Positions 6,370 through 22,867 of a stretch of 23,006 nucleotides of DNA are shown here, piece after piece. Position numbers and translations under genes: made by a program. The stretch comes from a virus: IMG/VR virus record IMGVR_UViG_3300032073_000271, positions 1 through 23,006 of that record. One strand, 5' to 3'. How positions within the stretch are numbered: the stretch's first letter is position 1; every line of letters starts with the position of its first letter. The notes beneath the pieces are model-generated. The model was given only the letters and a program-made list of their open reading frames with translations. It searched no databases and was not told where the DNA came from.

Positions 6370-6520
6370 AAAGGGATGGTCGTTTTTTATCCCATGTTTA
6401 AAACCAGTAGAAGCTAAACAGATTTTATTGGCGGAAGCTAAAAGACTTAAGTACGAAGTGACTACTAAAATAACAGTAGAAGACGGAGTGCGGGGTGTAC
6501 GTATGTGGAGAGTTAGCTGA
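6323..6520 (+). CDS. Conserved small phage protein of unknown function (65 aa)
   Basis: A 65-aa basic protein, the last gene of the left arm. Its core, INWKKFKKGWSFFIPCL (residues 10-26), then an Ala/Lys-rich helix and a GVRGVRMWRVS ending, matches from memory a small protein type often found near phage primase or regulatory genes; its function is unknown to me. It overlaps the end of the primase-helicase by 47 bases in another frame. A GTG at 6338 (Val6) is an alternative start, and neither start has a convincing ribosome binding site, so the true N-terminus is uncertain. The stop at 6518-6520 overlaps the end of the opposing 2317-aa gene by 8 bases. Coding quality and its non-overlapping body argue that it is real. 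Confidence 0.7.
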   Translation: MQIEKVEYQINWKKFKKGWSFFIPCLKPVEAKQILLAEAKRLKYEVTTKITVEDGVRGVRMWRVS

Positions 6521-9500
6521 TACCACCGTAATAACTTATGTTTTCTAAATTGCGGAAGAAAGGGTCGAGGTTTCGTCTGAAGTTACGGTTAAAACGTATA
6601 CCTGCTATGTACTCTCTTTCCGCTGCTCTACGTGATTTGTATGAACGGGTAAGCGTATCATTAGTAATTAGTCTGGGGTATGACCTTCTGAAGCTACTTA
6701 TACGTTCATCTACACGCTTACGTAGTTCTCTGTCACCAGTAGTAATTGCCAAATAACGTGCTTGCAATAACTCAGAACGTTTTTTCATTACCGCATTTTC
6801 ATATTGTTTAGCAAGTGCCCGTGTCTCATAAGTAAAAGATAAATTACCGGGAGTAAACCCAAGCGCTTGCATGTACAAATTATGAGCCTCCAAATCTTCA
6901 GTTATAGGACGACCATCTTTTGTTCTAGCGCCTTCTTCTAAGAAACGCATAGTTTTAAACCCATTACGTAAAAAGCTAGGTGCTAATCGTTCAAACCCTC
7001 TACCCAAATCTCCTTTTGATATTTCATTAAACGCAAGATTTATGTTCTCAGGAGCATCCATAACATAACTCCCCATAGGACCAAGCATTTGAAGAAACAT
7101 AGCAGGGGCATAACCAAACTTTTCTATCTCATAAGGGTCTTCTCTAAACCCTATACCATTTGCAATACTAGCTCTTCCTGATACTTCAACATCTAGGAAA
7201 CGATTAGTTGGACCTTTAAGGATTAGTTCAGATAAACCCAGTTCCTGCACTAAGTATTGACGAGCGTTGAATGGCGCATCTTCTTCATCATCAAACATAT
7301 CATATACACTTGCAACTATATTAACTAACGTTGCAAGTGCTCCAAAAAAAGGTAGCCCAAACAGTCCACCTATGGCGTAACTCATGCCATACATAAGAAA
7401 TAATTGTTTAAGAGCTGCTTTCTTTGTTGCTGCATCTTGGCCTTTTAGCACTTGGTGCATCGCCCTTCCTGTAACAAAAGCGCTTTGCCAAATAAAACCT
7501 TTAAACGTAAACATGACACGGCCTATATCATTCTGCATCCATTTGGGTGCAGTCGTAGCCATGCCTGAAGTATTTACATCTTTAACTATTTTCAGTGCGT
7601 AGTCTGCTGCTTCTTGGTCCGACTTGCCTTCAGCCTTCATCAAGTCGTATGCCATTACTCCAGTAGTAGCACGGTTATAACGTTCCGTTGCAGATATAGG
7701 CCAAGAAAGAAAACTAAGTAGTTTAGCTGTGCCAGTTCTATATTGTTCAGTGGTTTGTCTAGCCCCTTCTAAGACTTCTCTTTCTAAGGTGTGTCGTAGC
7801 TGACCGTGATCGCTTAGTGTTTTATACAAAGTTTGATACTTAGGATCAGAACCCCAATCAGAGTTTACAGCTACCTTACCCGCTGTCGTGAGCGCAGCGG
7901 CTGCTTTTACAGTACCAAAACGACCCGCAAGTATGGGGTAAGACATCAAAGGAACGGAGCTTAAGTTAACTAACGCAGAAGATATGTTACCCGACATATA
8001 CATAAAGTAGCTGCCGCTAGTAGCTTTAGAAGCAAGGAACCCGTAAGTAGGGTTTAAAGTAAAATCTTCTCTTGATGCTATGTTTTCGGCAACTGATTGT
8101 ATGGTTAATTCCGTAGGGTCTGAAGAATCAGTTTGAACATAACTTGCGCCCTGACTTCTTACTCTGTTAAACCCTTGTTGTATCTTACCGTTATATTTTA
8201 TATCTGCTAGTTTACGTGACCACTTAACCATTGTGTCTCCGTACACACGCAGCACGTCTTCAGATGGTCCTAATACGTCCTCAGAACTTCTAAAACTTTG
8301 CATTACAGAAGACTCTGGAAACAAATCTACGTACGCTTCATATACATCTGTAGCTAAAATATCACTTTGTTTGTCGCCTAAACCTAACTCTTTTGCGCTG
8401 TCTTTAACTGCTTGCATCGCATCTGCAACAAAACCTTCGGGTGGTAAGGTTTTACGTGCTAAATCTTTTATACTATTTACGGTGTAGTATTCATTTTCAT
8501 TTAGATCCGCATCACGTTTTCTTTTACGCAAGGCTTCTTTTTCTTCGTCCGTGGTAGCTTTTTCTAGGTCAGCTTGTATATCAAAACGTTCAGTTAACCC
8601 CCGTGCTTTTATCTCTTCGTTTCTTTTTGATTGAGACTCAAATGCAACTACAGTTTTCTTCCCTGTGTCTTTGTCTTTATAAACTAGTATAAACTCTCCG
8701 TACCTACGAGAAGGTATGTACCCTGCTATAGGGGGAGCTTCATCAAATTTCTTTTCTATTTCTTGCCTTAGTTGTGAGTTTGATATACTAGACAAAACTA
8801 CATCTACGTAATCGTTATACATTCTATCAAAATCAGTACGCATAATTTTGTACATATTTTGTACAGACTTTCCGCCTTCCATCTTTCCTATTTTTTCAAA
8901 AGCAGCTTTTCCTTTATTGTAGGCTTTTAGTTCTTCCTCTACTTTAGCTTTTGCTTTCTTACTTGTTATATTAGAGGAGGCAGGGTTAGGAGGAGGTTTA
9001 AATATATCCACTCGTGCAAGCCTCATCTCCATAGCCATTTTACCCATTGCTTCGTAAGCAGCTTTAAATTTATGGGATATGATATGAAAGTCGTTATACT
9101 TTTTATTAGCCGCTTCTATACCTCTTTCTTGTTCTGCTTGACGCATCTCGGTGTTATCTATAATTTCTTTAGTGCCGGGTAATTCTTTTTTGTACAAATC
9201 AAACAAATTATCTAGACGTGCCGCACCTGATAAAATACCTTTTATCTTCCCTGCCTCTGGTCCTTTTACATTTTCCATTGCTTCTTTTAAACGACGAGCG
9301 CGGTAAGGAGGAAAATTAGCTAACACTTCTTTAAAAGCTACATCTGGATTCTCATTACCAAGGAATACACTTTCCGCAGAAGAAGGTTCTATGGAGGGCC
9401 GTGCAGTTAATATATCGTTTAAAAACTTAAGGGACTTGTCGTATGCACTTTGCCCTTTACGTATACCAAGAAAGTTTAGAATAGTTTCTACTATAGTATC

Positions 9501-12500
9501 CCAAAGGGATTTACTCTCCGGTGCTTTTATTTCTTTAAGTAAGTTTTGAAACTTAGAGCTACCTAATAGTTCTGCAACGAACTCATAAAGATCATTGCCT
9601 CCATACGCATCCCCCATTTGAGTCTTTATCGAAGAGTAAAAATCAAAAAGTTGTTTTACTTCTTTAGAATTAGGATCAGCTAAAATTTTATCCAAAGCTG
9701 CGTGAGAAAGTTCATGGAATACAGTTTCTTTGTTAAGCCCACGTTCGGGGTCTAAAGCTATTACTTTTTCATCATAGTAATACCGACCTGTTTCTTCTGG
9801 GTCAGAAAAAGATTGCAAACGTATCTTAACGCCTGTAGCCATATCGCGTAGCTTACGGATAATGGGTCTTATTTCTTTAGGCTCTGAATCTATAATCGCT
9901 TTAATAGTTCGATTAAGGTTACCTGTCCGAGCTGCTTCTGCTACTACAGGGTCTACGCTAGTATCAGGTAGAGACTTTCTTGATTTGAATTTTTTATTAT
10001 CAGGTGCAGTTGCTGTACGTTTTTTTACTACTTCTCCTGCTATAATGTCACCAGCGAATGGGACTTCTGTTACTTTACGTCCGGTTGCTAGATAGTCTTT
10101 CTGATCTTGCTCCAAATTTGCTTTTACGCCAGCTATGCGCTCCGCGTCTAGTCGTTTCTGTTCTATCCGTGCTTTTTCTACCGCTGCTTTTTTCCCTGCT
10201 AAAACTATATCTTGTAATGATTTTGTTTCCTTTATAAATTCAAGCTCCCATTCTTTCCCTCTGTCACTAGGAAAATCTTTTAACGATTTATTTTTATATC
10301 TTTCAGTCATTACCTCGTTTGTACGTCTTATGGCTTCATCTCTAATAACATCATAGTCTGACGCAGTAAGTACTCCTTCCACTTGCCTTTGAAGGGTTTC
10401 TATATTAGCCTTTGTATCTTCGTCAGCTTGCGTTATTCCCCTTGCAAACTCCGTGTCTCCTTTAAGTTCATCTACAACCTCCGCTACTGTAACGTCTGTG
10501 TCTCGCACTGCTATTACTAACGCACTTCTTCTTGTAACCTTGACCCCCAAATCTTTAAATTCTTTGACGATTTCATCTGTTTCTAGCTTTCTTTTTTCTG
10601 TTGCTTCTTCATCTGCTATTCTGTCTGCTTCGTCTTTCGCTTTTCTAACGTCCGCTTCTGTATCTAATTGTTTTTTAAAAGCAGCATTTATAATGTCTTC
10701 TCTATATTCTCCTCTAAATCTTGCTACTAACTCTGCAAATTCTTTTTTTACTTCGGGGCTAAGTTCTGATTCAAAGTAAACCCAACTAGCCGCGTCTCGC
10801 AGTCCTTCTGCTTTTAAAGTAGTGCGTGTTATTGTGCCCCTCTTCAATCCAGCGGTACGGTTTTTAATAACTTCGTTTAAATCCTCTTCTGGAATTCTAC
10901 TTATTACGCCTTTTAACCGAGTTGGTACTGAACTCGGGGGATTAACATCTATATCTTGTTTAATAGTAATAGGTTGCAATTCTTCTACAATGCTGTCTGG
11001 ACTATTGGCAAGGTCGTACGCTATTTCATAAAGCCCTGCTTTTGGAGTACCTTTAACCACCGGAAGTTTAAAATATTTACTTGCAGCTATCGCTTTTTTT
11101 CCAGAGGGTCTTTCCTTTCTTACTTCTTTTAAAGCAGCTAAATTACTTTCTTTGTTAGCATCAAAACTTTTTAACTCTTTCTTATATGTTTCCTCTAAAC
11201 TTTCTTTTTCAGCCAGTTTTTCTACTAGTCTGACCGGATCACCACCTTTTTTTGCTACGTTGCCTCTAACATCTACAGCAAATACTTGATTTAAAATATT
11301 TTTATGTTTGTTTCGTGTTTGATTTACTGCTTCTATGTCTTCTGTACGTGTAGCTACAGGTACTTTTGGAAATGCTTTTTTAATACGTTGCTTAAAAGAT
11401 GCAATAAAATCTGAGCCTTCTGGGGGAAGAGGAGCTTCTTGGGCTATTGCTTTGTCTTGTTCTTCTAAAAATATTACAAAATTAGATTTTTTATTCTGTC
11501 CTGTTTGTTTTTTTCCAGAAGGATATACATAGTCTTTATTTGAATCGTAACCTCCTTCTTTTAAAAGTTTTCTTATTTCTGTGTCATATAAATCATAGGC
11601 ATCGCTTTCTTCTTGCTGTATGGCTCCAAATCTTTTTCTAAACGTTGTTTGTTGTTTTTCATTAAGACCAAAATTAAGTTTTTTATTAAGGGCATCTAAA
11701 CCTTCTTTGGTACTACCTTCTTTAAGGAAAGCACTTTTTATTCTATCTGGTTGATCTTCAAGTCCTTCTAAAAAAACATCCATAGCTGTTCGTTCATCAG
11801 CATCTAAAGATAAAGAATCTACTAGTTCAACATCTTCCTCTTCTTCTAGCTCTCTTTGCCTTTCTTCGGCACGTTGTTTAAACTGTGGTCCTAACCGCCC
11901 TGCTAACGCATCTTCTAATGCTCGCCTTCTGTTTTCTACAGCCTCTATTCCATCAGCTCCAAGTGTTTGTTCAGCCAGTTGTTGTAACTCTGGCCCAAGC
12001 ATTCCCTCTAGTGCGTCCTCTATGTATGCTTGATCCCTTGGACTCGCATCGTTCATAGCTCCAAGTTTTATTTGTTCTTCAGCAGCTTTTAGTTTTTGTT
12101 GCCCTGCATAGCTTTCTGAGTCAGCAAACTCTCCCGATGCTTTATCTTCAGCTTCTCTTACTCTTTTTTGATATTCTTTTTCTACTTTGCGGCTGTTTAT
12201 ATCTACGTCTAATTCGGCTGCTATAGCGGCTTTGACCCTAGACTCTTGCTTTTCTTCTTCCTGTGCAGTTTCTTCATAGGACTGAAGGAACTCATCTAGT
12301 TCGGTCTTTGAAGCTTTTCTTTTTTCACGTTCAGTTTCTTCTTCTTGTGCTTTTATTGTTTGCTCTTCCGCTAGAGTAGCTAGACGTTCTTCTACCTCTC
12401 CAAGTTTTGTGCCTCTTGGTTTTATTGCATCTGAACCTACTGAGCTTATTGCTCCAACAGGCGCACCGACTGCACCTTCTAAGGTAGCAGCCCCTGTCAC

Positions 12501-13466
12501 ACCTCTGAATGTAGGTACGTCAAACCCTTCTCGTTGCAAGGCTACGTTACGAGTGAACTGTTCCTGTCCACCTTGTAGGGCTTCAGGTAATGCTTCTTTT
12601 AACGCTGTGCGAGATGCTTCTTTTATAATCCCTGCTTTAGTTGCGTTCTTTAGCCCTGTTTCAGATACACCACCCGCTAACTTTTGACCTACTGCACGGG
12701 TAAGTATTTTTGGTTCTATTCCCACTCTTGCAGCTAAAGCGCCAAGGAAACCACCAAATGCAATGTTGTCTAGGTTTTCTCCGCTGTACGCTTGTGCTTC
12801 CTGTGCAGCTTCTTTAGCTTGTGCTTCAGATATACCGGCATTTACTAATTCTTGAAAAACAGCATCGTAAGCAGCGTCTTTACTAATACCAACTCCGGTA
12901 AGTACACCTACCCCAGTAGCCACACCTAAAGCGGGTAGGCCCGCTACACTACCTAGTACACCTGCTACTAACGTAGGTCCAGACGTACCAAATGCGTTAG
13001 CTATTAAATCTACAGGAGCAACGGTTAAGGCTTGTAAACCTGCCATGACTTGAGCACCCATGCCCTTATTCTCTGCTTCTTCCATGATGCGTGCTATTTC
13101 TTCTTGGTCGCGTTTGGATTGAGCAGAAAGCAAACTATCTAGGGTGTCTTCTACACCACTTAGAGTACGGGATACGGGGTTATCTGCCCCAAAAACATCA
13201 GTAAGAAAACGAGTGCCTGTAACAGCTCCTTTACCCAACTGAATAACAGGATCGAATGCTTCCTTTACAAACGACCTTTCTCTTGCGTCAGGTAACGGAC
13301 GACTCGTAGGGGGAGATGCAAGGGGAGATATAGGTGCAGGTGTAGTGGGTGCGGGTTGTGAAGCATATAACTCCCTAAAACCAGCTTCTACAGTACTAAA
13401 TGCGGGCGTGCCTTTTTTATCTTGGTTATCTACTATCCAAGTTGCTAGACGCTCCAAGTCGGACAT
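6513..13466 (-). CDS. Giant internal virion / large polyvalent protein with HExxH metallopeptidase
   Basis: A 2317-aa protein, about 30% of the window. Order of parts: short N-terminal domain and Pro-rich linker (to about 65); hydrophobic Gly/Ala/Val region (about 160-205); very long charged, coiled-coil-rich section (about 350-1170) with many Glu/Lys/Arg; zinc metallopeptidase with HELSH at 1251-1255 and likely third ligand in the YEFVAELL segment (E1295 or E1299); more helical sequence; and a C-terminal region (about 1800-2130) with membrane-like segments, including one around 2019-2058. The peptidase plus the C-terminal NRATTGVMAYD...FTFKGFIWQSA block resembles the LPD domains of phage large polyvalent proteins. 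As last gene of the structural operon, after an SLT protein, it sits where T7 gp16 lies (1318 aa), so an ejected channel or effector protein is likely. ATG at 13464-13466 follows an AGGGGAG ribosome binding site, one base after the previous stop. Role inferred, motifs seen. Confidence 0.8.
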   Translation of the reverse strand: MSDLERLATWIVDNQDKKGTPAFSTVEAGFRELYASQPAPTTPAPISPLASPPTSRPLPDARERSFVKEAFDPVIQLGKGAVTGTRFLTDVFGADNPVSRTLSGVEDTLDSLLSAQSKRDQEEIARIMEEAENKGMGAQVMAGLQALTVAPVDLIANAFGTSGPTLVAGVLGSVAGLPALGVATGVGVLTGVGISKDAAYDAVFQELVNAGISEAQAKEAAQEAQAYSGENLDNIAFGGFLGALAARVGIEPKILTRAVGQKLAGGVSETGLKNATKAGIIKEASRTALKEALPEALQGGQEQFTRNVALQREGFDVPTFRGVTGAATLEGAVGAPVGAISSVGSDAIKPRGTKLGEVEERLATLAEEQTIKAQEEETEREKRKASKTELDEFLQSYEETAQEEEKQESRVKAAIAAELDVDINSRKVEKEYQKRVREAEDKASGEFADSESYAGQQKLKAAEEQIKLGAMNDASPRDQAYIEDALEGMLGPELQQLAEQTLGADGIEAVENRRRALEDALAGRLGPQFKQRAEERQRELEEEEDVELVDSLSLDADERTAMDVFLEGLEDQPDRIKSAFLKEGSTKEGLDALNKKLNFGLNEKQQTTFRKRFGAIQQEESDAYDLYDTEIRKLLKEGGYDSNKDYVYPSGKKQTGQNKKSNFVIFLEEQDKAIAQEAPLPPEGSDFIASFKQRIKKAFPKVPVATRTEDIEAVNQTRNKHKNILNQVFAVDVRGNVAKKGGDPVRLVEKLAEKESLEETYKKELKSFDANKESNLAALKEVRKERPSGKKAIAASKYFKLPVVKGTPKAGLYEIAYDLANSPDSIVEELQPITIKQDIDVNPPSSVPTRLKGVISRIPEEDLNEVIKNRTAGLKRGTITRTTLKAEGLRDAASWVYFESELSPEVKKEFAELVARFRGEYREDIINAAFKKQLDTEADVRKAKDEADRIADEEATEKRKLETDEIVKEFKDLGVKVTRRSALVIAVRDTDVTVAEVVDELKGDTEFARGITQADEDTKANIETLQRQVEGVLTASDYDVIRDEAIRRTNEVMTERYKNKSLKDFPSDRGKEWELEFIKETKSLQDIVLAGKKAAVEKARIEQKRLDAERIAGVKANLEQDQKDYLATGRKVTEVPFAGDIIAGEVVKKRTATAPDNKKFKSRKSLPDTSVDPVVAEAARTGNLNRTIKAIIDSEPKEIRPIIRKLRDMATGVKIRLQSFSDPEETGRYYYDEKVIALDPERGLNKETVFHELSHAALDKILADPNSKEVKQLFDFYSSIKTQMGDAYGGNDLYEFVAELLGSSKFQNLLKEIKAPESKSLWDTIVETILNFLGIRKGQSAYDKSLKFLNDILTARPSIEPSSAESVFLGNENPDVAFKEVLANFPPYRARRLKEAMENVKGPEAGKIKGILSGAARLDNLFDLYKKELPGTKEIIDNTEMRQAEQERGIEAANKKYNDFHIISHKFKAAYEAMGKMAMEMRLARVDIFKPPPNPASSNITSKKAKAKVEEELKAYNKGKAAFEKIGKMEGGKSVQNMYKIMRTDFDRMYNDYVDVVLSSISNSQLRQEIEKKFDEAPPIAGYIPSRRYGEFILVYKDKDTGKKTVVAFESQSKRNEEIKARGLTERFDIQADLEKATTDEEKEALRKRKRDADLNENEYYTVNSIKDLARKTLPPEGFVADAMQAVKDSAKELGLGDKQSDILATDVYEAYVDLFPESSVMQSFRSSEDVLGPSEDVLRVYGDTMVKWSRKLADIKYNGKIQQGFNRVRSQGASYVQTDSSDPTELTIQSVAENIASREDFTLNPTYGFLASKATSGSYFMYMSGNISSALVNLSSVPLMSYPILAGRFGTVKAAAALTTAGKVAVNSDWGSDPKYQTLYKTLSDHGQLRHTLEREVLEGARQTTEQYRTGTAKLLSFLSWPISATERYNRATTGVMAYDLMKAEGKSDQEAADYALKIVKDVNTSGMATTAPKWMQNDIGRVMFTFKGFIWQSAFVTGRAMHQVLKGQDAATKKAALKQLFLMYGMSYAIGGLFGLPFFGALATLVNIVASVYDMFDDEEDAPFNARQYLVQELGLSELILKGPTNRFLDVEVSGRASIANGIGFREDPYEIEKFGYAPAMFLQMLGPMGSYVMDAPENINLAFNEISKGDLGRGFERLAPSFLRNGFKTMRFLEEGARTKDGRPITEDLEAHNLYMQALGFTPGNLSFTYETRALAKQYENAVMKKRSELLQARYLAITTGDRELRKRVDERISSFRRSYPRLITNDTLTRSYKSRRAAEREYIAGIRFNRNFRRNLDPFFRNLENISYYGGIS
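11881..12020 (-). repeat. Degenerate 35-codon internal duplication in the giant protein
   Basis: Two related segments lie 105 bases (35 codons) apart. On the protein they read ALEGMLGPELQQLAEQ (upstream copy) and ALAGRLGPQFKQRAEE (second copy), inside the coiled-coil region at about residues 480-530. The similarity is clear in the first half of the unit and fades afterwards. This suggests the long charged section grew partly by duplication. Confidence 0.45.
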
Positions 13467-13467
13467 T

Positions 13468-16400
13468 TTACTCCCCTACGACGTTGAGCGCATCTCGTAC
13501 TACGGAACTACCACCGCCTCCAGTACCACCACCGCCTCCAGTAGCACCGCCGCCTCCAATAAATAAACCCGGAGCAGCCTCAGTAATAGCACCCAGTAAC
13601 CTCTTTAATGTTTCATTTTGCACCTCTGTGCTTTGTACCTCTTGTTGCAGCTCTTCTGCTACTCGTTCAGCTAAAGTATCAAAAGTTACGGAACCAACTA
13701 AGGATTGGATTAAATCAAACTGAGCTAACCTTTCTTGTGTAGCAAAGGCTTCTCTATCCACGTCTATTCTTTCACGCATAGTATCCAGTTCTTGTTGCTG
13801 GAAGTCTCTAGCCATTTGGTTAGCTATTAGCTGAGTACCTTCTTGTCCTCTAGCAGCACCACCTGCCATGCCTAATGTTTGAAACGCATCATAAAGACTA
13901 TTAGCTCGGTCAGAGGAAAGGGCTGAACCAAGACGACTTAGAATACCCCCTCTGTCTTCCTGCCCCCCTTTGCCCTGCATCCTATTACGGGCATTTTCAG
14001 CACCTTCTCTACTGCGCGTTGCTTTATCCTGTGCGTACTTTGAAGTTCCTTGTTTCAAACCGGCGTACACATTAGGTAATTCTTGTTGTAAACGCTGCAT
14101 ATCCTCTGTAAGCGCTTCAGGGTTTTGTGCGGCTGTTTCGTCGCTACCAAAAAAACTGCCTAAACCTGCCGCGCCTAATCCTACTCCCGCACCTGAACGT
14201 GCAGTTTGTAAACGGCTAAAAACTCTAGGAGCAACTAATGGATCTCGTGCAGGAGCATTTGGTAATAGCTTACCGCTTTTATCTCTACCTCTTGATACTT
14301 TACCCCGTGGTTTCATAGCTTCTTTCATACTTACGGTTTTACCTAAACCGGGGTCACGTACCCCAATCCTAGGGTCAATATTACGTTTAGTAAACGGGCT
14401 AGATAATACATTACGTGTCTTACTACCTGCGCCAAACACACCACCCGGACCAAAGCTACCTTTCAAAGCTGCTAATCCTCTAGGTGCATATTTAGCCGCA
14501 GCCGCCCCTGCGCGACCTAATGCAAATAAACCACCACCGGGTACAAGCATAAGCCCCATACTTAATAGTAACCCCGGATTCTCGGCAGCGAAATTGTATA
14601 TTTGAGATAACTTACCTTCATCTTTAACTACGGACTCAATAGGCACTCCTTGTTCACCACCCTCTAACTCTACTAAATCTCCTTCTTGGAAACCTCTAAC
14701 TTCACCACCTTCGTTAAATAAACCCTGCACAAAATCTAAAATTTCACTGAAGTCATCTCTAACATTAGTAAAAAGATTATTGCCTCTGGTTTTTTGTGGA
14801 GCGGTATCTTTTGGACTCATGGCATAACGAGCCGCTGCATTGGCAGCGCCCGGAAAAGCTTGCCTCATACGTTGTGCAGGGCTTTCCATACCGCCCTCAA
14901 CTACAAACTCTTCGTTAATGTCGATGCCTTCAAGGTTGGTAGCAGGATTAGCCCTAGCAATCATGTCCTCTTGCCCTTGCATCATCTTTAAAAAGTTACT
15001 AGCACGTTTTGCTTCTTCTTCTTGTTTTCTACCTATGGATTGAAGGTAACCTATTCCACCTTGAGCACTTTGATCTTGATTTCTTCCTACGCCACGTAAA
15101 GAACCTATAGCTGGATTGTTTCGTAGTATTCTTCTTCTTTCCGCCGCAGCTAACCCCGGAGATACATTCACCCCTCGTCTGCGTTCTTCATCACTTTCTT
15201 CTTGCCTTCTTCCTACGCCACGTAAAGAACCTATAGCTGGATTGTTTCGTAGTGTTCTTCTTCTTTCTGCCGCAGCTAACCCCGGAGACACATTCATTCC
15301 TCGTCTACGTTCTTCATCACTTTGGCCTTCCATTTGACCTAGTATCTTTCTTATATAAGGTTGAGTTATGTCAGAGTGAGGCAGTCCTTCATAGTCTCTA
15401 CCAGTAGATACAAAGTTATCGGCATTTTGGTAACCTGCGTTATACGCAATAAGAGCTGCTTCTACATCCCCATCGTAACGGTCAATCAAGGCTTGAAGGT
15501 ACTCTCTAGAAAAATCTCGACTAGCTTCGGGGTCAAAAAGATCGCCTGTAAAAGGAGTTACACCAAATCCCGGTTGTGCCGCAGTTGAAGGTCTAATTTG
15601 ATACGCACCTAACTCGCCCACACCACCAACTGCATCGGGGTCACCTCCGCTTTCCGTCATCATCAAAGCGGTAAGAAGGTCTTCTATATCTACGTCACTT
15701 GCTTGTACTAAACCACGGTTAGCAAAACCAACAACACCACCGCCAGCCATTCCATCGCCCCTTGTAGCTTCAAAAAGCTGTTCCATTCCGTTTAACGTTT
15801 CGCCTTTTGCTTTCTTTTTATCTATAATGTCGTGCACATTTTGCCGAAATTTTTCTCCTTCTTCCCTCCTTAAAGAGGTTTGATAATCACTAGGTCCACC
15901 TCTTATCATTTCTAGGTCGGCTAAAAAATTAAGTCCTGATGCTCTTGATTTCAAACCAGACAAAAAATTATCATATGTTTGTTGAGCAACATCTCTGTAC
16001 CTTGGATCAGCGTTTTTAAGCGCGTCTTTATAGTACTTTTCATTCATAAGAAAGTTATTTACAAACTCAGGTTTGTACCTTTCCATTAACCCAATAATAG
16101 GTTGTCTGTTACCCATAAAGCCCTTACCTTTTTCTCTTCCTATTTGTATATGGCGCGGGTCTTTTTTCAACAGCTCGTCTAAACTACTTATGCCTTCCCC
16201 ATATTCAGGTCGCTCTTCTCTAACATTACCGCCATCATCAAACCCAACAATCCCACCGCCAGCCATACGCATGGGAGCTTGTTGCATACCTCGTTGCATA
16301 CCCGGCTGCATACCCATTGCTTTACGCATTTGGGCTGCTTGCATTTGTTTACCACGTTGTTGAAGCCCCGGACGGGCAGTAGCAAAAGCTTCTTGTTGTC

Positions 16401-16614
16401 CTAAATTACCTAAACCCATAAGTTTTTTATCTATGACACTAGGACCAACTTCTCCAGTACCCATCAACTTTGCACGTTGATCTTCTTGTACGGTTTTTTC
16501 TAAGTTTTCTAGGGCAATACCAACAAGTAACTTAGGGTTCTGCTGCTGCAATTTTTGCAGTGCAGGTAATCCCATGCCTTCATAAGTATCAACTTCTTCT
16601 TGAATATTTATCAT
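13468..16614 (-). CDS. Internal virion protein with lytic transglycosylase (SLT) domain
   Basis: A 1048-aa protein whose enzyme domain (about 307-426) is a soluble lytic transglycosylase: catalytic Glu in MMTESGG (E321), GELGAYQIRPST (333-344) and LIAYNAGYQNAD (388-399). Such domains locally cut peptidoglycan during DNA entry, as the SLT domain of T7 gp16 does. Before it lie a Gln/Met-rich N-terminus and two Gly-rich motifs, AGGGIVGFDDGG (118-129) and AGGGVVGFANRG (290-301). After it come two near-identical 42-aa units (about 432-510), a third motif EGGEVRGFQEGD (about 636-647), a hydrophobic Gly/Ala region around 680-710 and a Gln/Glu-rich helical end with a Gly-rich stretch. It lies between the gp14-like gene (17-base gap) and the giant protein (1-base gap). 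A ribosome binding site is weak (AAAGG about 8 bases upstream). SLT assignment is firm; virion location is inferred. Confidence 0.87.
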   Translation of the reverse strand: MINIQEEVDTYEGMGLPALQKLQQQNPKLLVGIALENLEKTVQEDQRAKLMGTGEVGPSVIDKKLMGLGNLGQQEAFATARPGLQQRGKQMQAAQMRKAMGMQPGMQRGMQQAPMRMAGGGIVGFDDGGNVREERPEYGEGISSLDELLKKDPRHIQIGREKGKGFMGNRQPIIGLMERYKPEFVNNFLMNEKYYKDALKNADPRYRDVAQQTYDNFLSGLKSRASGLNFLADLEMIRGGPSDYQTSLRREEGEKFRQNVHDIIDKKKAKGETLNGMEQLFEATRGDGMAGGGVVGFANRGLVQASDVDIEDLLTALMMTESGGDPDAVGGVGELGAYQIRPSTAAQPGFGVTPFTGDLFDPEASRDFSREYLQALIDRYDGDVEAALIAYNAGYQNADNFVSTGRDYEGLPHSDITQPYIRKILGQMEGQSDEERRRGMNVSPGLAAAERRRTLRNNPAIGSLRGVGRRQEESDEERRRGVNVSPGLAAAERRRILRNNPAIGSLRGVGRNQDQSAQGGIGYLQSIGRKQEEEAKRASNFLKMMQGQEDMIARANPATNLEGIDINEEFVVEGGMESPAQRMRQAFPGAANAAARYAMSPKDTAPQKTRGNNLFTNVRDDFSEILDFVQGLFNEGGEVRGFQEGDLVELEGGEQGVPIESVVKDEGKLSQIYNFAAENPGLLLSMGLMLVPGGGLFALGRAGAAAAKYAPRGLAALKGSFGPGGVFGAGSKTRNVLSSPFTKRNIDPRIGVRDPGLGKTVSMKEAMKPRGKVSRGRDKSGKLLPNAPARDPLVAPRVFSRLQTARSGAGVGLGAAGLGSFFGSDETAAQNPEALTEDMQRLQQELPNVYAGLKQGTSKYAQDKATRSREGAENARNRMQGKGGQEDRGGILSRLGSALSSDRANSLYDAFQTLGMAGGAARGQEGTQLIANQMARDFQQQELDTMRERIDVDREAFATQERLAQFDLIQSLVGSVTFDTLAERVAEELQQEVQSTEVQNETLKRLLGAITEAAPGLFIGGGGATGGGGGTGGGGSSVVRDALNVVGE
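15085..15323 (-). repeat. 126-bp tandem duplication (42-aa repeat) in the SLT protein
   Basis: Two copies start at 15085 and 15211, a period of exactly 126 bases. Over about 113 bases they differ at only a few positions, mostly silent or conservative. The encoded units share DEERRRG-NVSPGLAAAERRR, then LRNNPAIGSLRGVGR, and lie directly after the transglycosylase domain. A degenerate third GIGYLQSIGRKQEEE follows. The unit is basic and could be a flexible or DNA-contacting linker; that is inference. Confidence 0.92.
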
Positions 16615-16631
16615 GGTTTATGCCTTTACTT

Positions 16632-17495
16632 TTAACTTTTATTAAAGAAACCGCCTTCACCAAACATGCCCTCTGGACCAAAAAGTGCTGACCCAGTAGC
16701 TCCTACTAAACCTAAATCACTTAGAAATTGACTTAAACCACTAGGTTCTATGTAGTCACGAGACACTGCTTCTATGGGTAGCCCTTGTAATAAAGACTGC
16801 ATGTATTGTACTTTTTTGAAGGGGTCGTCTCGCTCTTCTTTAAACTGCATATAATCAGCAGCTACACCTTGTTGTTCTAGAGCTTGTTGTTCTCTACCTG
16901 CTAATTGTTGTGCACGCAGTGCATCCAAACCATACTTTTGTTCTTTGCCGAATAAATCAGAGGCTTTATCATAAGCCGTTAGATACCCTTCTGCTGTTAT
17001 ATCATCTAGCCTATTTAGTAAACCTTGGTCTAACTCGCTTTCAGCTATTGCTTGTCGTCCACCCCCATAAGCACCCGCTTTGCTATACCGACTTTGCATC
17101 TCTTCCTTTAGTTTGTCTGATTGTCGCATAGCTGCATTGTACTGGGGCTGAAGCGCAGCTTGCAGGTAAGGATTCATATACGCTTGTACTGGACTAGCCC
17201 CCGCTCCTGCAAACGGTTGAGGTGTTTCGCCCCCTGCAATTTGTTCAGCAGTAAGCGGTGTGTAAGATGCGCCTGTAAAAGAACCTGTGGCGCTTGCGGC
17301 GGGCATACCCAAAGAACCGAGGCCACTAAACGCTTGGTTTTGCAATGCAGAAGGGCCAGCAGTTAACGGCCCTGTATACGCTTGGTAAGGCGTGGCAGCT
17401 AGAGCTTGCCCCTTGCCTAACATTTCGGTTACATAGGGAGCGGCATAAGGTGATATTGATTCAACCGCTGATGTTTCTGATCCTACTGCACTCAT
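16632..17495 (-). CDS. Probable internal virion / ejection protein (T7 gp14-like position)
   Basis: A 287-aa protein, Ala/Gly/Gln-rich. Residues 1-100 are low-complexity with many Ser, Ala, Pro and Tyr. From about 105 on it is helical: NPYLQAALQPQYNAAMRQ, then a KAGAYGGGRQAIAESE turn (139-154), then Gln/Glu/Ala helices and a Gly/Phe-rich tail. The 'GAYGGGRQAIAE' helix break is familiar from marine phage structural proteins with no assigned function. Its size and position, after the nozzle and before the SLT protein, parallel T7 gp14 (196 aa), which forms the outer-membrane part of the ejection channel; this parallel is inference from gene order. The ATG at 17493-17495 has a ribosome binding site TAGGAG (17503-17508) that overlaps the previous gene's stop. 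No signal peptide is visible. Confidence 0.72.
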   Translation of the reverse strand: MSAVGSETSAVESISPYAAPYVTEMLGKGQALAATPYQAYTGPLTAGPSALQNQAFSGLGSLGMPAASATGSFTGASYTPLTAEQIAGGETPQPFAGAGASPVQAYMNPYLQAALQPQYNAAMRQSDKLKEEMQSRYSKAGAYGGGRQAIAESELDQGLLNRLDDITAEGYLTAYDKASDLFGKEQKYGLDALRAQQLAGREQQALEQQGVAADYMQFKEERDDPFKKVQYMQSLLQGLPIEAVSRDYIEPSGLSQFLSDLGLVGATGSALFGPEGMFGEGGFFNKS

Positions 17496-17505
17496 CGTTA
17501 TTCTC

Positions 17506-20319
17506 CTATGCTGGCATCATCTTGGTAGGGTTAATCTCTGGGCCTTGCTTAGTAGTTCCAGTGCGTTCATCGCGTACCCTATCCATCATTGAGTATAATT
17601 GTTCTGCTCCTGCATCGGAATTGCCATTGCCTAAATGACTTACCACGTCAGCAGGTATTACAAATTCACCGTCGCTTAAAGCAGCGGGTTGCGAGTTATT
17701 TATTGTAGCAGGAATAAGGTCAGCCATGCCGTCAGTAGGCCCACCTAAATAGTATCCTTGAGCCATGCCGCCTTGTGCAAAACCCTTAAGCCCTCTTTCC
17801 TTTGCGTATTCCCGAACTTGATCTGCCGTAACACCTGCAAGATCAGGGTAATCTTGGTTATTAGCGTAATAAGCGGCTATTTCTTCTGGTGTTGCACGCC
17901 CTTGAACTAACAAACTTTCCATAAGTTCTACTTCGGTAAGGCCGATGTTATCTGAACCCTCATTAACTAATGTTAAACGCTCTGCCATTTGTGCTGGAGT
18001 TTCATACCCTCCTCTTAGCATAGCTTCTATTACATCCATGCTATCTAGGTCATACCGCTTGGCTACATCATCCATACCTGTTTTGCCACCAAGTATCAAC
18101 GCAGCTACGCTATCTGCTTCTGACTTTTGAAAACCATCTGACGGGTCAATTAAATCAAAAACACTCTGCATTTCTGCTTGAGCTATAGCATTACTTAACT
18201 TAGTTGCATCTACCCCTAACGTACTAGCAATGTTAGATAAATCGTACCCACTATCCCTTAACTGAATAAGTTGTGATGGCGATAATGACTGGCCGTAAAA
18301 AGGAGATATAAAGTTATTGAACGCAGCAGTAGGGTCTGGTGTAGGCGCAGGTGCAGGTGCAGGTGCAGGTGCAGGTGCAGGTGTTGGTGCAGGTGTTGGT
18401 GCAGGTGCAGGTGCAGGTGCAGGTGCAGGTGTTGGTGCAGGTGTTGGTGCAGGTGTTGGTGCAGGTGCAGGTGTAGCGGCGGCATCTTGAACAGAACCCA
18501 TACCAGCACTAGCCGCTTCGGCTGCACCTTGGGCGTAATCCCCAATACTAGAGATTGGATTAACACCTGCGATAACATCACTAGTTACATCATAAGTGCT
18601 ACCTGTGGCATCTGTAGTAGCTGTAGTATCTCCACTTCCTCCCCCAAATAACCCACTTAGCGCCTCAAATGCAGCGCTGGGGTCTATTGCTTCAGAAGGA
18701 CCACCAAACTCAGGTAATAACTCTCTTTTGTACGTATACTTTGGTATTTGTATTTTGCTGGAATCTAAAGATTCGCCACCAAGTGCAGTGCCTGTGGGTG
18801 CAAACGCTCCTTGGGTAAAATAATTTCTACCGTACTCTCCCGGTCTTCTAGTTACCATGTCTACTGCATCTTGTTCAGCGTTAGCCACTTCGCCACCCTG
18901 TGCAAATATACGTAAATTTTTCATCTCATCATCTTCTTGTGTGGTTATAAAAGGTTGATCTAAACCTTTATCAAAGTCATACAAATAATCTATATCTACT
19001 AAATCACCCGGTTCCTCTTTAACTCCCCTGTAACTCTGTGGTAAAGACGCAACACCACTACCACCACTACCAGCAGGGTCTTTTATGTCTTTTATTTCTG
19101 GCCCAGTTTTAATTTCACCTGTCTCAGAAAGATTAACTTCGGGGTTATATTCGCCATAATCAACTTCGGGGTAAGTTATATCTTTTACTTTGGTTTCAAT
19201 TTCGTAGTCGTCAGAACCTACACTTCCACCTATTATATCTCTTGCTTTAGTTTCAATTGCGTAATCGTCAGAACCTACACTTCCACCTATTATATCTCTT
19301 GCTTTAGTTTCAATTGCGTAATCGTCAGAACCTACACTTCCACCTATTATATCCCGTGTATCGACTTTAGATGCAGTATCATTAGTAGGGTCAAACGGGC
19401 CATCCTTTGGTTGAACACCGTTTAAAACTTCCTCTTTTGTAAGATCAACACCAAATTTTGTATCGGGTGTCAACACATCTACTATTTGTCCACCAGCTTC
19501 AACTGCCCCTTCTACTGTGTCTGTGCTTACACCTGCTTCTCTTGCCACTTCAGCTATTACGATATCTCTAAGCACCTCTGGGGTTAGCACCTCTCCAACC
19601 GTTACTTTGCCTGTTAATACTTGAGTAACTTTATTAAGCACCGCGTCTAAAGCAGGAATTCCTGTAGTAACTCCTGTTTGTGTACCTGCTCCAGTTGTAC
19701 CTGTGTTTATAACAGGGCTACCCCTACTGCTTCCCCATACTATTGTGCCGCCCGGACTATTCGGCGCTGCAATGACTTTAGTGGGGTTAGGTATATTTAA
19801 AATATCAAATACAGCATCTATACCATCTCCAACTACACTCCCTACTTTATTTATACCATCCCCAACTACACTCCCTACTTTATTTATAACAGATTGGTTT
19901 GCAGGGGGTAGTCCATACCCATACTGTGAAGGACTAGGACTTGTTAACTTACTAGCAACGCTGCTTGCTATACCTGCACTTTGAACTAAATCCCCAAACG
20001 CTGCATCATTAGCAAGTGTAGTTAGGTAATCTTGGATAGCGTTAGCACCACTAATAGAGGCATCTGCTCCTAGAGTAGAAACACCACACTCTCCGGTAGC
20101 AGAATCGAACTCACCCCCCGCCGCTGCACATTTAAGCCGCTGTTCTTCCATTTGTTCTGCTTCTGCACCTTCAGCCATTATGGCTCTTAGCACCGAATCT
20201 ATTTGATCTCCACGGGCAGCGTTTTGTGCTACAGAAGGGGTGTCGATAGAGTAATTACCACCATACCCTCCTCGTGGGGCTGTAGTTATTAGCTCTACTA
20301 TGTCAAAATCGTCAGCCAT
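17506..20319 (-). CDS. Repeat-rich structural protein with DGEFVIPADVV C-terminal module
   Basis: A 937-aa protein of unknown function. Visible parts in order: N-terminal domain (1-130); two INKVGSVVGDG units (145-166); a Val/Thr-rich domain (170-310); three RDIIGGSVGSDDY units (323-371); an acidic linker; an AQGGEVANAEQD motif (about 471); a Pro-Ala/Pro-Thr repeat (615-660); helical UBA-like looking segments (670-840) such as LRDSGYDLSNIASTLGVD; and a C-terminus with FAQGGMAQGYYLGGPTDGM, then DGEFVIPADVVSHLGNG (from D883). That last module is one I recall on many marine phage virion proteins. It sits between the jelly-roll gene (8-base gap) and the gp14-like gene (10-base gap), so it is likely a virion component: fibre, scaffold or an ejected protein. 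ATG at 20317-20319, preceded by a GGGATAGG site. The N-terminal half and repeats match no family I know. Confidence 0.8.
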   Translation of the reverse strand: MADDFDIVELITTAPRGGYGGNYSIDTPSVAQNAARGDQIDSVLRAIMAEGAEAEQMEEQRLKCAAAGGEFDSATGECGVSTLGADASISGANAIQDYLTTLANDAAFGDLVQSAGIASSVASKLTSPSPSQYGYGLPPANQSVINKVGSVVGDGINKVGSVVGDGIDAVFDILNIPNPTKVIAAPNSPGGTIVWGSSRGSPVINTGTTGAGTQTGVTTGIPALDAVLNKVTQVLTGKVTVGEVLTPEVLRDIVIAEVAREAGVSTDTVEGAVEAGGQIVDVLTPDTKFGVDLTKEEVLNGVQPKDGPFDPTNDTASKVDTRDIIGGSVGSDDYAIETKARDIIGGSVGSDDYAIETKARDIIGGSVGSDDYEIETKVKDITYPEVDYGEYNPEVNLSETGEIKTGPEIKDIKDPAGSGGSGVASLPQSYRGVKEEPGDLVDIDYLYDFDKGLDQPFITTQEDDEMKNLRIFAQGGEVANAEQDAVDMVTRRPGEYGRNYFTQGAFAPTGTALGGESLDSSKIQIPKYTYKRELLPEFGGPSEAIDPSAAFEALSGLFGGGSGDTTATTDATGSTYDVTSDVIAGVNPISSIGDYAQGAAEAASAGMGSVQDAAATPAPAPTPAPTPAPTPAPAPAPAPAPTPAPTPAPAPAPAPAPAPTPDPTAAFNNFISPFYGQSLSPSQLIQLRDSGYDLSNIASTLGVDATKLSNAIAQAEMQSVFDLIDPSDGFQKSEADSVAALILGGKTGMDDVAKRYDLDSMDVIEAMLRGGYETPAQMAERLTLVNEGSDNIGLTEVELMESLLVQGRATPEEIAAYYANNQDYPDLAGVTADQVREYAKERGLKGFAQGGMAQGYYLGGPTDGMADLIPATINNSQPAALSDGEFVIPADVVSHLGNGNSDAGAEQLYSMMDRVRDERTGTTKQGPEINPTKMMPA
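18339..18476 (-). repeat. Hexanucleotide repeat coding for a Pro-Ala/Pro-Thr stretch
   Basis: About 138 bases built from GGTGCA and GGTGTT hexamers (plus-strand reading), which code on the minus strand for Ala-Pro and Thr-Pro pairs. It has around twenty units; the order of A and T units is itself partly repeated. The unit is six bases, so gain or loss of units keeps the frame. The product would be an extended, stiff linker separating the N-terminal repeats from the helical C-terminal half. Confidence 0.93.
19208..19353 (-). repeat. 57-bp tandem repeat, two full copies and most of a third
   Basis: Copies start at 19208, 19265 and 19322, an exact 57-base (19-codon) period. Adjacent copies are essentially identical until the third diverges after 19353, where ATCTC becomes ATCCC. 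A decayed partial unit precedes them at about 19190-19207. The encoded unit is RDIIGGSVGSDDY followed by AIETKA. Near-identity at silent positions points to recent duplication. Confidence 0.95.
19822..19887 (-). repeat. 33-bp direct repeat, two adjacent copies
   Basis: Units at 19822-19854 and 19855-19887 differ at a single base (ATCTCC versus ATCCCC). They encode the 11-residue unit INKVGSVVGDG twice. Again a whole number of codons, in the same gene as the 57-base and hexamer repeats. Confidence 0.95.
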
Positions 20320-20327
20320 ACCTATCC

Positions 20328-20978
20328 CTACGGTGTCGGTAGTGTTTCAGGCAATGCTGAAATCAAATGTACGGTTACTAGAGTAGACGGTATTGCAGGG
20401 CGGGGACTTGAAGCCGCCTGATAATCAATCGTTATGCCTGTATCGTCTGTTGCCCACATAAGCTCTATGTATTGCCCTGCTTGTACGTCAAGCGTAAAAC
20501 TATATTCAAAGTCGTCTACGCCGCCAGAACCCGCCACTACGTGCAGTCTACCAGTGTTTGCTATGTCTACTCCGCTCCTACGCACCCAAAACGACAGTTC
20601 TTTTGAGTTAGCATTAGTACTAGTCAGCTCTACGGAAAGCTCAAAGTTGTAAACTCCTGAATAAGTTGGAGTTATTTGGGTGTTAGAGCCTCCAGCTATG
20701 GTTATGGCTTCCCCTAAATACGTATTTTCAAACTGTAATGCGTAAGCTGTATTTACTATCGCTGCATTTTGATCTACTGTGGAGAAGAACTTACCATTGG
20801 GGGTACTAATAAAACGCCCCCCGTAATCTCCAGATAACAAGTTTACAGTATTTGTTAGGCCGGTGAACAATAAACGTAGAATATTATTTAAGTCATCTAA
20901 ATAAGTACTTAGAGAGGTTTCTCTTGGAGCAACAGGAAGAGCTGGGTTAGTAACCTGATTTATAAGGTCGTTAGCCAC
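20328..20978 (-). CDS. Small jelly-roll-like virion fibre or decoration protein
   Basis: A 216-aa protein. Residues 1-55 contain a short Pro motif (LPVAPRE) and an amphipathic helix (LSTYLDDLNNILRLLFTGLTN) that look like an attachment region. Residues about 80-210 are beta-rich with a C1q/TNF-like or jelly-roll pattern: SGVYNFELSVELTST, then ELSFWVRRSGVDI, FEYSFTLDVQAGQYIELMW, and a closing PAIPSTLVTVHLI. I recall this pattern in phage proteins encoded next to tail nozzle genes, consistent with a trimeric fibre, spike tip or decoration protein. It starts with GTG at 20976-20978; an AGGAGAGG site and a one-base overlap with the nozzle stop (TAGTG) support this start. Receptor binding is possible but not shown by the sequence. 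An 8-base gap separates it from the next gene. Confidence 0.72.
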   Translation of the reverse strand: MANDLINQVTNPALPVAPRETSLSTYLDDLNNILRLLFTGLTNTVNLLSGDYGGRFISTPNGKFFSTVDQNAAIVNTAYALQFENTYLGEAITIAGGSNTQITPTYSGVYNFELSVELTSTNANSKELSFWVRRSGVDIANTGRLHVVAGSGGVDDFEYSFTLDVQAGQYIELMWATDDTGITIDYQAASSPRPAIPSTLVTVHLISALPETLPTP

Positions 20979-22867
20979 TAACCTCTCCTACCATCAGGGC
21001 GCATCTGTAAACGAGGTACACCTAACTTCCAAGTAACTCCAACCTCCGTAGACTCCAGTTTAAAGGACATTTGCCTACCTCGTACCCGTGTATCTACCAT
21101 ACCAGTAAAAGCTTCAATCGGTGCTACAGCGGTACGAGTTACGGCAGCGTTATCGCTACCTCCTACTGAAGCAGGGTTATAGTACCCAGACCCAGAATCT
21201 TTTAACGGCAACAAAGTAACAACAGCACTGGGAGAACCTGCTGTAGAACCTTCAAAGGTTAAATCAGGTAACATTTTGTTTATTAACATAAATTTATCAC
21301 CGTCATCCAAATCAAATTGAGAAGAGGTGATACTGGCTGTTATGGCTGTTGGAGTACCCGTTTCATTATTATCCACGCCTTTTTCTTGATTAATTAGTTT
21401 ACCGTCAAACCCAGCAGCTATTGGGAAATCTCGTAAGTCCGAATCTAGCCATGCAGAACGTGCCAACGTGCCGTAATACCAAATGTTTTCTACGTAGTTA
21501 TACACAACGTACCGGTCATTACGAGTTACCCCAGAGGAACAATAAAACCACCATATTTCATCAAATTCTTCGTTAGACCCACATACTATTTGTTCCGTTT
21601 GTTGACTATTAAAATCATCAAATACATAGCTGCGTACCGAGCAAGGCAATGTTTTAACTGTGCCATCGTAGTAATAAAACTTACTTGTTCCCATCCAGTA
21701 GGCAATGTTATTGGAGTACACGGCTGCATTGGAGCTGGCTATAGTAATATTAGACCCCAATAGAGTTGCACCCCACACCAAAGGCGCACCTAAATACTGT
21801 AGGCCATACATAGCTGAATCAGTCCACACCAGTACTTCTTGCCGTGCTTGTACAGCCTGAACTATTTCTGTGCCTTCGGAAAGACTAAGACTTCCTGCTT
21901 GATTGACAGAAGTAGGATTCCAATCGGCAATATTCTCTTGGTCAGACCACCGCAAAAGCATAGGGTCTAAAGTAGCACTACCTATAGCATTTGCACCAAA
22001 ACAAAAAGCAAACCTAAATATATCTGATACAAAAGCAATATTAGCTACAGTAGGTACTTGTGCTGCACCACCTAAAGAACTTACTAACACCCCTCTTGTG
22101 GTAACACCACTACTTGCATCCCAGTAATATAAAGCGCCGTTTCTATGGACAAAAAACAAATCTTCCCCAAAATTGGCTTGACTCCAAAGACGCATTCCAG
22201 CAAGAGTAATACCGCCATTGCCCCAAGTGCTTTGTCCCCACGTACCTGCACCCCAACCCGTAAACGGAACTTCTATTTCGTTTCCAGTATTAATTTGGTA
22301 AGTACCTACAGTGTTGGAGCCTCCATTACCTGTATCTGATCCACTAGCCAACACAGTACTACCAGAAGTATCTTTGGCTTCTATGGTGTAAGAATTACCG
22401 TTGACTATAGTAGCTATCTGATACTCTTGATTAAGCACTGCCGCTGTGATGACCCCACCCAAACTCGCCGCACCCGAATAAGTAACAAAATCTCCTACAA
22501 CAGCCCCATGAGCTGTATCCGTAACAGTAATAGTGGCATCGCCGTTTACAGCCGCAAAAGTAACATCCCCCGCTGCTGTAGTTAGTCTAATAGGAGTAAT
22601 GTCGTTGTATGCTCCACCACGTTCTATATAGTATTTAAGGTTAGTACCTACAGAAACAAGGTTTTGAAGGCTTAAAGTAGCCCAGTTATGTAAGGAGCGT
22701 GCTACTCCTAGATAAGTATTAGCAGACAGTCGTTCCCAACCACCAATTTTCTGGGGTAAACCACGTCTGAAGCGCACTTTTTCAGTCTCATACCAAGCAC
22801 CTTCTGCTGCATAGCGAGTGTTTTCCCGATCTACTCCTGCTTTAAACTGTACTTTTTTGTAAGGCAT
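20978..22867 (-). CDS. Tail nozzle / DNA stabilisation protein (P22 gp10 or T7 gp12-like)
   Basis: A 629-aa beta-rich protein. The N-terminus, MPYKKVQFKAGVDRE with KVRFRRGLPQKIGGW (residues 30-44), and the body with repeated blade-like strands (for example LFFVHRNGALYYWD, MLLRWSDQENIADWNP, AYWMGTSKFYYYDG, IWWFYCSS) match what I know of the P22 gp10 'phage stabilisation' family and the related beta-propeller nozzle T7 gp12. These plug and extend the tail below the portal and hold in packaged DNA. At 629 aa it is longer than P22 gp10 (472 aa); the extra length is largely an inserted Thr/Val/Gly-rich domain at about 96-200. ATG at 22865-22867 overlaps the upstream TAA (TAATG); its own stop overlaps the next GTG. 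It anchors the right arm as a short-tailed phage structural operon. Family fairly sure; P22-type versus T7-type not resolved. Confidence 0.8.
   Translation of the reverse strand: MPYKKVQFKAGVDRENTRYAAEGAWYETEKVRFRRGLPQKIGGWERLSANTYLGVARSLHNWATLSLQNLVSVGTNLKYYIERGGAYNDITPIRLTTAAGDVTFAAVNGDATITVTDTAHGAVVGDFVTYSGAASLGGVITAAVLNQEYQIATIVNGNSYTIEAKDTSGSTVLASGSDTGNGGSNTVGTYQINTGNEIEVPFTGWGAGTWGQSTWGNGGITLAGMRLWSQANFGEDLFFVHRNGALYYWDASSGVTTRGVLVSSLGGAAQVPTVANIAFVSDIFRFAFCFGANAIGSATLDPMLLRWSDQENIADWNPTSVNQAGSLSLSEGTEIVQAVQARQEVLVWTDSAMYGLQYLGAPLVWGATLLGSNITIASSNAAVYSNNIAYWMGTSKFYYYDGTVKTLPCSVRSYVFDDFNSQQTEQIVCGSNEEFDEIWWFYCSSGVTRNDRYVVYNYVENIWYYGTLARSAWLDSDLRDFPIAAGFDGKLINQEKGVDNNETGTPTAITASITSSQFDLDDGDKFMLINKMLPDLTFEGSTAGSPSAVVTLLPLKDSGSGYYNPASVGGSDNAAVTRTAVAPIEAFTGMVDTRVRGRQMSFKLESTEVGVTWKLGVPRLQMRPDGRRG
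20982..20989 (-). promoter_or_regulatory. Shine-Dalgarno that decides the GTG start at 20978
   Basis: On the minus strand AGGAGAGG ends three bases before the GTG, with about six bases from the AGGAG core. Because no ATG is placed as well, this site is the reason to accept GTG as start of the 216-aa protein. It lies inside the end of the nozzle gene. Confidence 0.7.

Follow-up and report, generated by a model that had tools for sequence, protein, structure and literature searches.

What does a short glycine-rich motif do when it recurs in two large proteins of one phage gene cassette, and is it maintained at the level of the protein or of the DNA? The window analysed here, the whole 23,006-nt stretch of virus record IMGVR_UViG_3300032073_000271 (positions 1 to 23,006), raises this question. 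The record is of the short-tailed-phage type. Its plus strand carries SNF2-like helicase and primase-like genes, labelled from the sequence alone, and its minus strand carries, in this order, genes for proteins of 629, 216, 937, 287 and 1048 aa, the last with a lytic transglycosylase (SLT) domain, and for a DarB-like giant of 2317 aa. We number the cassette from the 937-aa protein (gene 0) through the 287-aa (gene +1) and 1048-aa (gene +2) proteins to the 2317-aa giant (gene +3). Coordinates are collected in Table 1.

Table 1. Cassette genes, domains and motif copies in the window
Feature	Position	Strand	Remarks
629-aa tail/stabilization protein	20978..22867	-	PHROG 3287, E 3.1e-64; query for the collection of relatives
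937-aa protein, gene 0	17506..20319	-	conserved C-terminal GGPTDGMADxIPATI...LSDGEFVIPADVV module
287-aa DNA ejection protein, gene +1	16632..17495	-	PHROG 4287 'DNA ejection protein', E 1.2e-8; without motif
1048-aa ejection-type virion protein, gene +2	13468..16614	-	ORF; PHROG matches to internal virion / lytic tail proteins
2317-aa giant, gene +3	6513..13466	-	PHROG 10089, DarB-like, E 9.7e-62; without motif
Motif copy 1, (M)AGGGIVGFDDGG	16228..16263	-	aa 118-129 of the 1048-aa protein; closes the common N-terminal region; 37.2 bits
Exchangeable helical module	15748..16227	-	aa 130-289, between copies 1 and 2; helices aa 172-284
Motif copy 2, (M)AGGGVVGFANRG	15712..15747	-	aa 290-301 of the 1048-aa protein; immediately ahead of SLT; 26.3 bits
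SLT lytic transglycosylase domain	15415..15684	-	aa 311-400 of the 1048-aa protein; Pfam and Foldseek
Motif copy 3, divergent, (FN)EGGEVRGFQEGD	14677..14712	-	aa 635-646 of the 1048-aa protein
(F)AQGGEVANAEQD	18868..18906 with F, 18868-18903 without	-	aa 472-484 / 473-484 of the 937-aa protein
(F)AQGGMAQGYYLGG	17740..17781 with F, 17740-17778 without	-	aa 847-860 / 848-860 of the 937-aa protein

By size and position, genes +1 to +3 follow the gp14-gp15-gp16 order of three consecutive genes (287, 1048 and 2317 aa in the window), and the same three genes are found in most relatives, with products of about 270-340, 450-930 and about 2000 aa. The consecutive genes gp14/gp15/gp16 of T7 and gp7/gp20/gp16 of P22 have a similar size order, and in the window it is the middle gene that carries the hydrolase. 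No sequence match to the T7 or P22 ejection proteins was detectable beyond the transglycosylase, which is also the only part to match PDB entries, whether by sequence or by fold. The domain itself is clear: PF01464 matches with 69.1 bits (E 3e-19; Pfam gathering cut-off 21.3), a locally built SLT model places its start at aa 307, and Foldseek relates the predicted structure to MltD (8rhf, probability 1.00, E 5.5e-3), which likens it to the MltD-type, GEWL-like SLT transglycosylases. PHROG 342, an internal virion protein with endolysin domain, matches the protein at aa 311-445 only. Among relatives, gene +2 encodes SLT in 13 of 71 cases by Pfam and Glucosaminidase in one of 71; SLT is thus only one exchangeable module of this gene. 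Hydrolase domains are described as moving between gp15-like and gp16-like proteins, K1E gp35 being an example (PMC8954989). Gene order, PHROG matches and the hydrolase domain together suggest that the 1048-aa and 937-aa proteins lie inside the virion or are ejected from it.

The 1048-aa protein is laid out as a common N-terminal region, the motif, a helical module, the motif again, SLT, a third copy and a C-terminal helical part. The five strings singled out in the earlier note are all present on the minus strand, at slightly corrected coordinates. Copy 3 is identical in relative L002, reads FQEGGQIKNFQEGD in L003 and takes the canonical form FQGGGIVGFTPGGE in the matching context of L021. In the 937-aa protein, relatives' versions of the (F)AQGGEVANAEQD string are YAEGGDVDNQDAVDM and YAEGGEVANEDAVDM, while the (F)AQGGMAQGYYLGG string marks where an ordered domain of helical repeats (aa 661-848) gives way to the C-terminal module. 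The core that the earlier note proposed as shared, (A/E)-x-GG-(E/I/V/M)-V-x-x-F, describes the copies of the 1048-aa protein, but those of the 937-aa protein do not fit this form with F, and the true common core is [FYLM]AxGG.

Each protein was shuffled 2000 times. The 1048-aa protein has three matches to GG[EIV][VI](x)GF (shuffle mean 0.00; reached by 0 of 2000 shuffles) and the 937-aa protein none. The loose pattern [AE]x(0-1)GG[EIVM] occurs seven times in the former (mean 1.3, fraction 0.001) and five times in the latter (mean 0.8, fraction 0.0025). [FYLM]AxGG is found twice in each, with shuffle fractions of 0.04 and 0.008 in the window, and becomes decisive only across relatives. Motif frequency is therefore far above the expectation for Gly-rich proteins given by composition-matched shuffles, which rule out chance occurrence.

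Relatives were gathered by scanning viral contigs with two motif-free queries, the 629-aa protein and the last 79 aa of the 937-aa protein, and further with the 1048-aa protein and with the motif DNA, which found 41 stretches; all scans together gave about 200 loci. Relatives served to seed the scoring matrix, one set of 41 loci was picked by the motif, and the 71 representatives used below were picked for having it. An assessment independent of motif-based selection comes from 38 loci fetched by the C-terminal DGEFV module of the 937-aa protein, each with that gene identified and with no less than 3.5 kb after it. The motif lies downstream in 36 of these 38, normally in the second gene (gene +2), with its first copy at aa 100-182. 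Since members share ancestry, none of these counts are of independent events.

The 71 representatives carry one to three copies with the consensus M-A-[DG]-G-G-I-V-[GA]-[FY]-x-x-G-G-x-V or, at greater length, [PN]xxRMA[DG]GGIV[GA][FY]xxGGxV. The first copy lies at aa 100-187 in 71/71, a position range of 85-200 having been a selection criterion. The only invariant columns of the whole protein in the 71-member alignment are G120 and G121 (window numbering), both within copy 1. Conservation extends beyond the glycines: first copies keep A in 64/71 (90%), I in 66/71 (93%), V in 62/71 (87%) and F or Y in 67/71. A Q/P/M-rich stretch just upstream drifts freely. Many uncultured phages, most of them aquatic, thus carry the motif in nearly the same form.

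Named relatives, recognised by the 629-aa protein, include DSL-LC04 (38.5% identity), roseophages CRP-901/902, cyanophage MinM2 and pelagiphages HTVC023P/HTVC027P. A 645-aa protein of DSL-LC04 carries MANGGIVQRFQEG at aa 162; in the two pelagiphages the motif is weak or recast (FKEGGLGSL; MFRKGG...). In these (L084 22016-22876 and L087 22240-23079, respectively), the protein that follows the ejection protein starts with a Gly-rich signature (FKEGGLGSL; MFRKGGNVGTGVMTGIVDR), possibly the recast motif. A 35-aa tblastn query for the motif in named phages returned weak matches to T4-like tail-fibre adhesins (E 4-10), which we take as chance. Viral contigs gave 41 stretches of the motif DNA; a search of 257 Gb of prokaryote genomes for an exact DNA pattern gave none. 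Literature searches found no paper for the motif strings and nothing relevant on cyanophage MinM2; the accessible part of PMC8954989, on T7-type ejection proteins, makes no mention of the motif. The junction motif is real and conserved, and apparently undescribed.

That it is a junction follows from comparing gene +2 products. The window protein aligns with that of L002 over aa 3-129 and 290-1010, an EF-hand-like cassette (FPDLSGDGKVTQKDVLMGRGV) replacing the helical module, and with that of L003 over aa 3-131 and 289-1011, with nothing between the two copies. The boundaries of the swapped or absent module thus coincide exactly with motif copies 1 and 2. When all pairs are taken together, 59% of internal C-terminal alignment ends lie no more than 15 aa from where a motif stops, compared with 8% in rotated controls; for second and third copies alone the count is 171 of 520 ends, compared with 40 +/- 11 (0/2000). 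The pairs are related, and these figures give direction and size rather than exact significance. The 86 aa upstream of the motif fall into one cluster holding 62-66 of the 71 members, and the 80 aa downstream into 38-41 clusters. The motif is thus the exact joint between a common N-terminal region and about 40 unrelated downstream sequences. Modules adjoining it are SLT transglycosylase, which starts 0-11 aa past the motif in 8 of 12 cases, the EF-hand-like cassette and unnamed helical modules.

An EF-hand/dockerin-like half-module, FPDLSGDGKVTQKDILMGRGV, lies between two motif copies in L002, L008, L011, L013, L016, L047 and L139. In L095 it follows the motif and the second copy is degenerate. 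The window protein is without it.

Conservation of a joint could reside in the DNA, the encoding sequence being kept because it promotes module exchange by recombination. The position of the homology breakpoints at the motif would fit such a site, as would a codon usage that differs from the protein average (ATT, for example, 70% against 39%). Codon identity at fourfold-degenerate identical residues disfavours it: in distant pairs this is 0.32-0.36 at the motif and 0.29-0.36 upstream, and most identity bins give close values, for instance 0.324 and 0.321, or 0.464 and 0.439. A synonymous excess at the motif is modest and confined to the two lowest-identity bins, with no consistent excess at higher identity, and synonymous sites are not conserved above the flanks as expected of a recombination hot-spot. 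Copies within one protein also use different codons. A DNA-level recombination site accordingly has very little probability. The main signal points to selection on the protein, and the skewed codon usage may reflect a weak nucleotide-level component.

AlphaFold models of the 1048-aa and 937-aa proteins were built with 71 and 58 aligned sequences, respectively, a depth at which low pLDDT is weak evidence of disorder. Copies 1 and 2 lie in segments with pLDDT below 50 (aa 101-145 and 284-301), between helical parts and SLT, and copy 3 just past a helix, at a pLDDT of about 53-62. In the 937-aa protein the AQGGEVANAEQD copy falls within a long low-confidence segment (aa 277-506) and the AQGGMAQGYYLGG copy at the end of the confident helical repeat domain, where pLDDT drops from above 90 to about 45. 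Foldseek with both models returned the transglycosylase only, plus weak helical-repeat matches. The motif therefore does not sit inside folded domains but in low-confidence linkers between them, and its assignment to domain borders in the earlier note is backed by both the predicted structures and the homology breakpoints.

Such a location invites a passive explanation, the main rival of the one we prefer: a Gly-rich soft joint, with no binding partner, that lets modules unfold and pass serially through the narrow tail. Glycine content, low pLDDT and position at module borders are all as a hinge would have them, and ejection proteins are reported to leave partly unfolded through a narrow channel (PMC8954989). 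A hinge would, however, not need the retention of A, I, V and the aromatic residue seen here, next to a stretch that drifts freely, and we consider it rather unlikely. Linear binding motifs typically appear as strongly conserved segments inside linkers. The hydrophobic run IVGF/Y, flanked by glycines and present several times in some proteins, could instead be read as membrane-active or beta-forming, either inserted into the conduit across the host envelope or lining it. This is very improbable: about four hydrophobic residues are followed by polar or charged positions, and no beta strand is predicted at copies 1 and 2.

The distribution of the motif across the cassette is selective. At 11 bits the full motif is found in 46 of 53 gene +2 products, in 10 of 70 gene 0 products (0.4 in shuffles) and once in gene +1, with no match in the 70,687 aa of the gene +3 family. 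The core [FYLM]AxGG is enriched 11.3-fold in gene +2 and 6.5-fold in gene 0, where 59 of 70 proteins have it, and is depleted in gene +1 (1 against 7.0 in shuffles, 0.1x) and gene +3 (3 against 12.1, 0.2x). In gene 0 it stands at a nearly fixed distance, 33-54 aa, ahead of EFV in 55 of 69 relatives. G850 and G851 are invariant among 58 relatives, in an alignment from which one row from the phages collection was left out and whose 34 invariant columns all lie within the last 88 aa. Two neighbouring structural proteins, as the earlier note had it, are in fact separated by one gene; that they share the motif is right at the family level, given the core enrichment in genes 0 and +2, the nearly fixed position and the invariant GG.

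The C-terminal module of the 937-aa protein (17506-17766, minus strand, aa 852-937; GGPTDGMADxIPATI..LSDGEFVIPADVVSHLGNGNSDAGA) is highly conserved in these phages. For this DGEFV module the relatives share no Pfam or PHROG model, and a PDB search by sequence gave nothing significant. Helical, HTH-like repeats occupy aa 661-848 and 255-269, the array being confidently predicted just ahead of the motif; across the relatives' alignment many HTH and sigma-70 region 4 Pfam families match, each in one member.

Restriction to two genes bears on whether the motif is a processing site, with a cut at or after A-x-G-G freeing the modules and removing an N-terminal targeting region, as in internal head proteins. 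The motif does end a conserved N-terminal region and precede modules, genes +1 and +3 are poor in its core, and AxGG resembles the Gly-Gly sites known for some viral cysteine proteases, a resemblance that we treat as a lead only. Against cleavage speak the conserved residues on both flanks of the GG and the very small fragment that cutting at two copies would make of the EF-hand-like cassette. Neither S78 nor a ClpP-type prohead protease was found in 18 records, most of them of near-genome length, although the controls matched; C39 gave one match, below the cut-off, and S77 and C48 gave none in searches whose controls also failed to match. With these prohead protease families undetected (the S77 and C48 searches being uncontrolled), cleavage becomes less likely, and we judge processing improbable. 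In T4, internal head proteins bear an N-terminal capsid-targeting sequence that is cleaved by gp21. This is likewise a short conserved signal of proteins packed into the head; the motif studied here differs in lying at aa 100-187 in the family and in being repeated, and a protease of that kind was not found (the S77 search being uncontrolled).

The reading that we prefer is a linear docking or assembly motif at the module junctions of a gp15-like, presumably internal, ejection protein of short-tailed phages; we regard its chances as evenly balanced. The motif would close the conserved N-terminal region and recur ahead of each module fused behind it, and a common partner would recognise it through a groove or a beta-edge, as we infer from the retention of A, I, V and F/Y along with the glycines. 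Recognition might, for example, hold the proteins in the virion core, or it might assemble the periplasmic conduit once the proteins have been ejected, in the way that T7 gp15 is stitched by the 'molecular tape' of gp16 (PMC8954989). There, the extended tape of gp16, which follows its transglycosylase domain, cements the gp15 tunnel; the likeness to the motif is one of working logic and makes no claim of membership. Unlike in T7 and P22, the motif of the window is common to an extra upstream gene, the one with the DGEFV module. Docking would also make the motif a portable joint, behind which new modules could be inserted without disturbing assembly, and this would explain the breakpoints. Of the processing, docking or assembly signal first suggested, docking or assembly fits the restriction to two of four genes and the invariance, while processing is weakened by the failure to detect S78 and ClpP-type proteases in the 18 records. 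Docking would explain why residues other than glycine are kept, why the motif lies in linkers and recurs at borders, and why it is restricted to two genes.

More tentatively, and somewhat doubtfully, the motif may be a virus-specific portable anchor tag that docks two ejection-cassette proteins on a common hub and lets interchangeable envelope-breaching modules plug in. If so, it would define the module slots in one cargo system of abundant uncultured phages. Ejection proteins diverge fast and are hard to recognise, and a signature of 13 residues whose GG never varies, and whose place in the gene order is fixed, aids annotation in uncultured phages and marks the points of module swapping. The motif predicts a specific binding or processing site, and the junction yields a parts list of the envelope-breaching modules behind it.

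Both proteins also contain repeats. After the SLT domain of the 1048-aa protein there is a direct tandem duplication (15066-15323) of a 126-bp unit, equal to 42 aa, DEERRRGxNVSPGLAAAERRR.LRNNPAIGSLRGVGR. In the 937-aa protein a 57-bp unit (ARDIIGGSVGSDDYAIETK) is present in three copies at 19176-19353, and a 6-bp array at 18338-18473 encodes a Pro-Ala-Thr linker.
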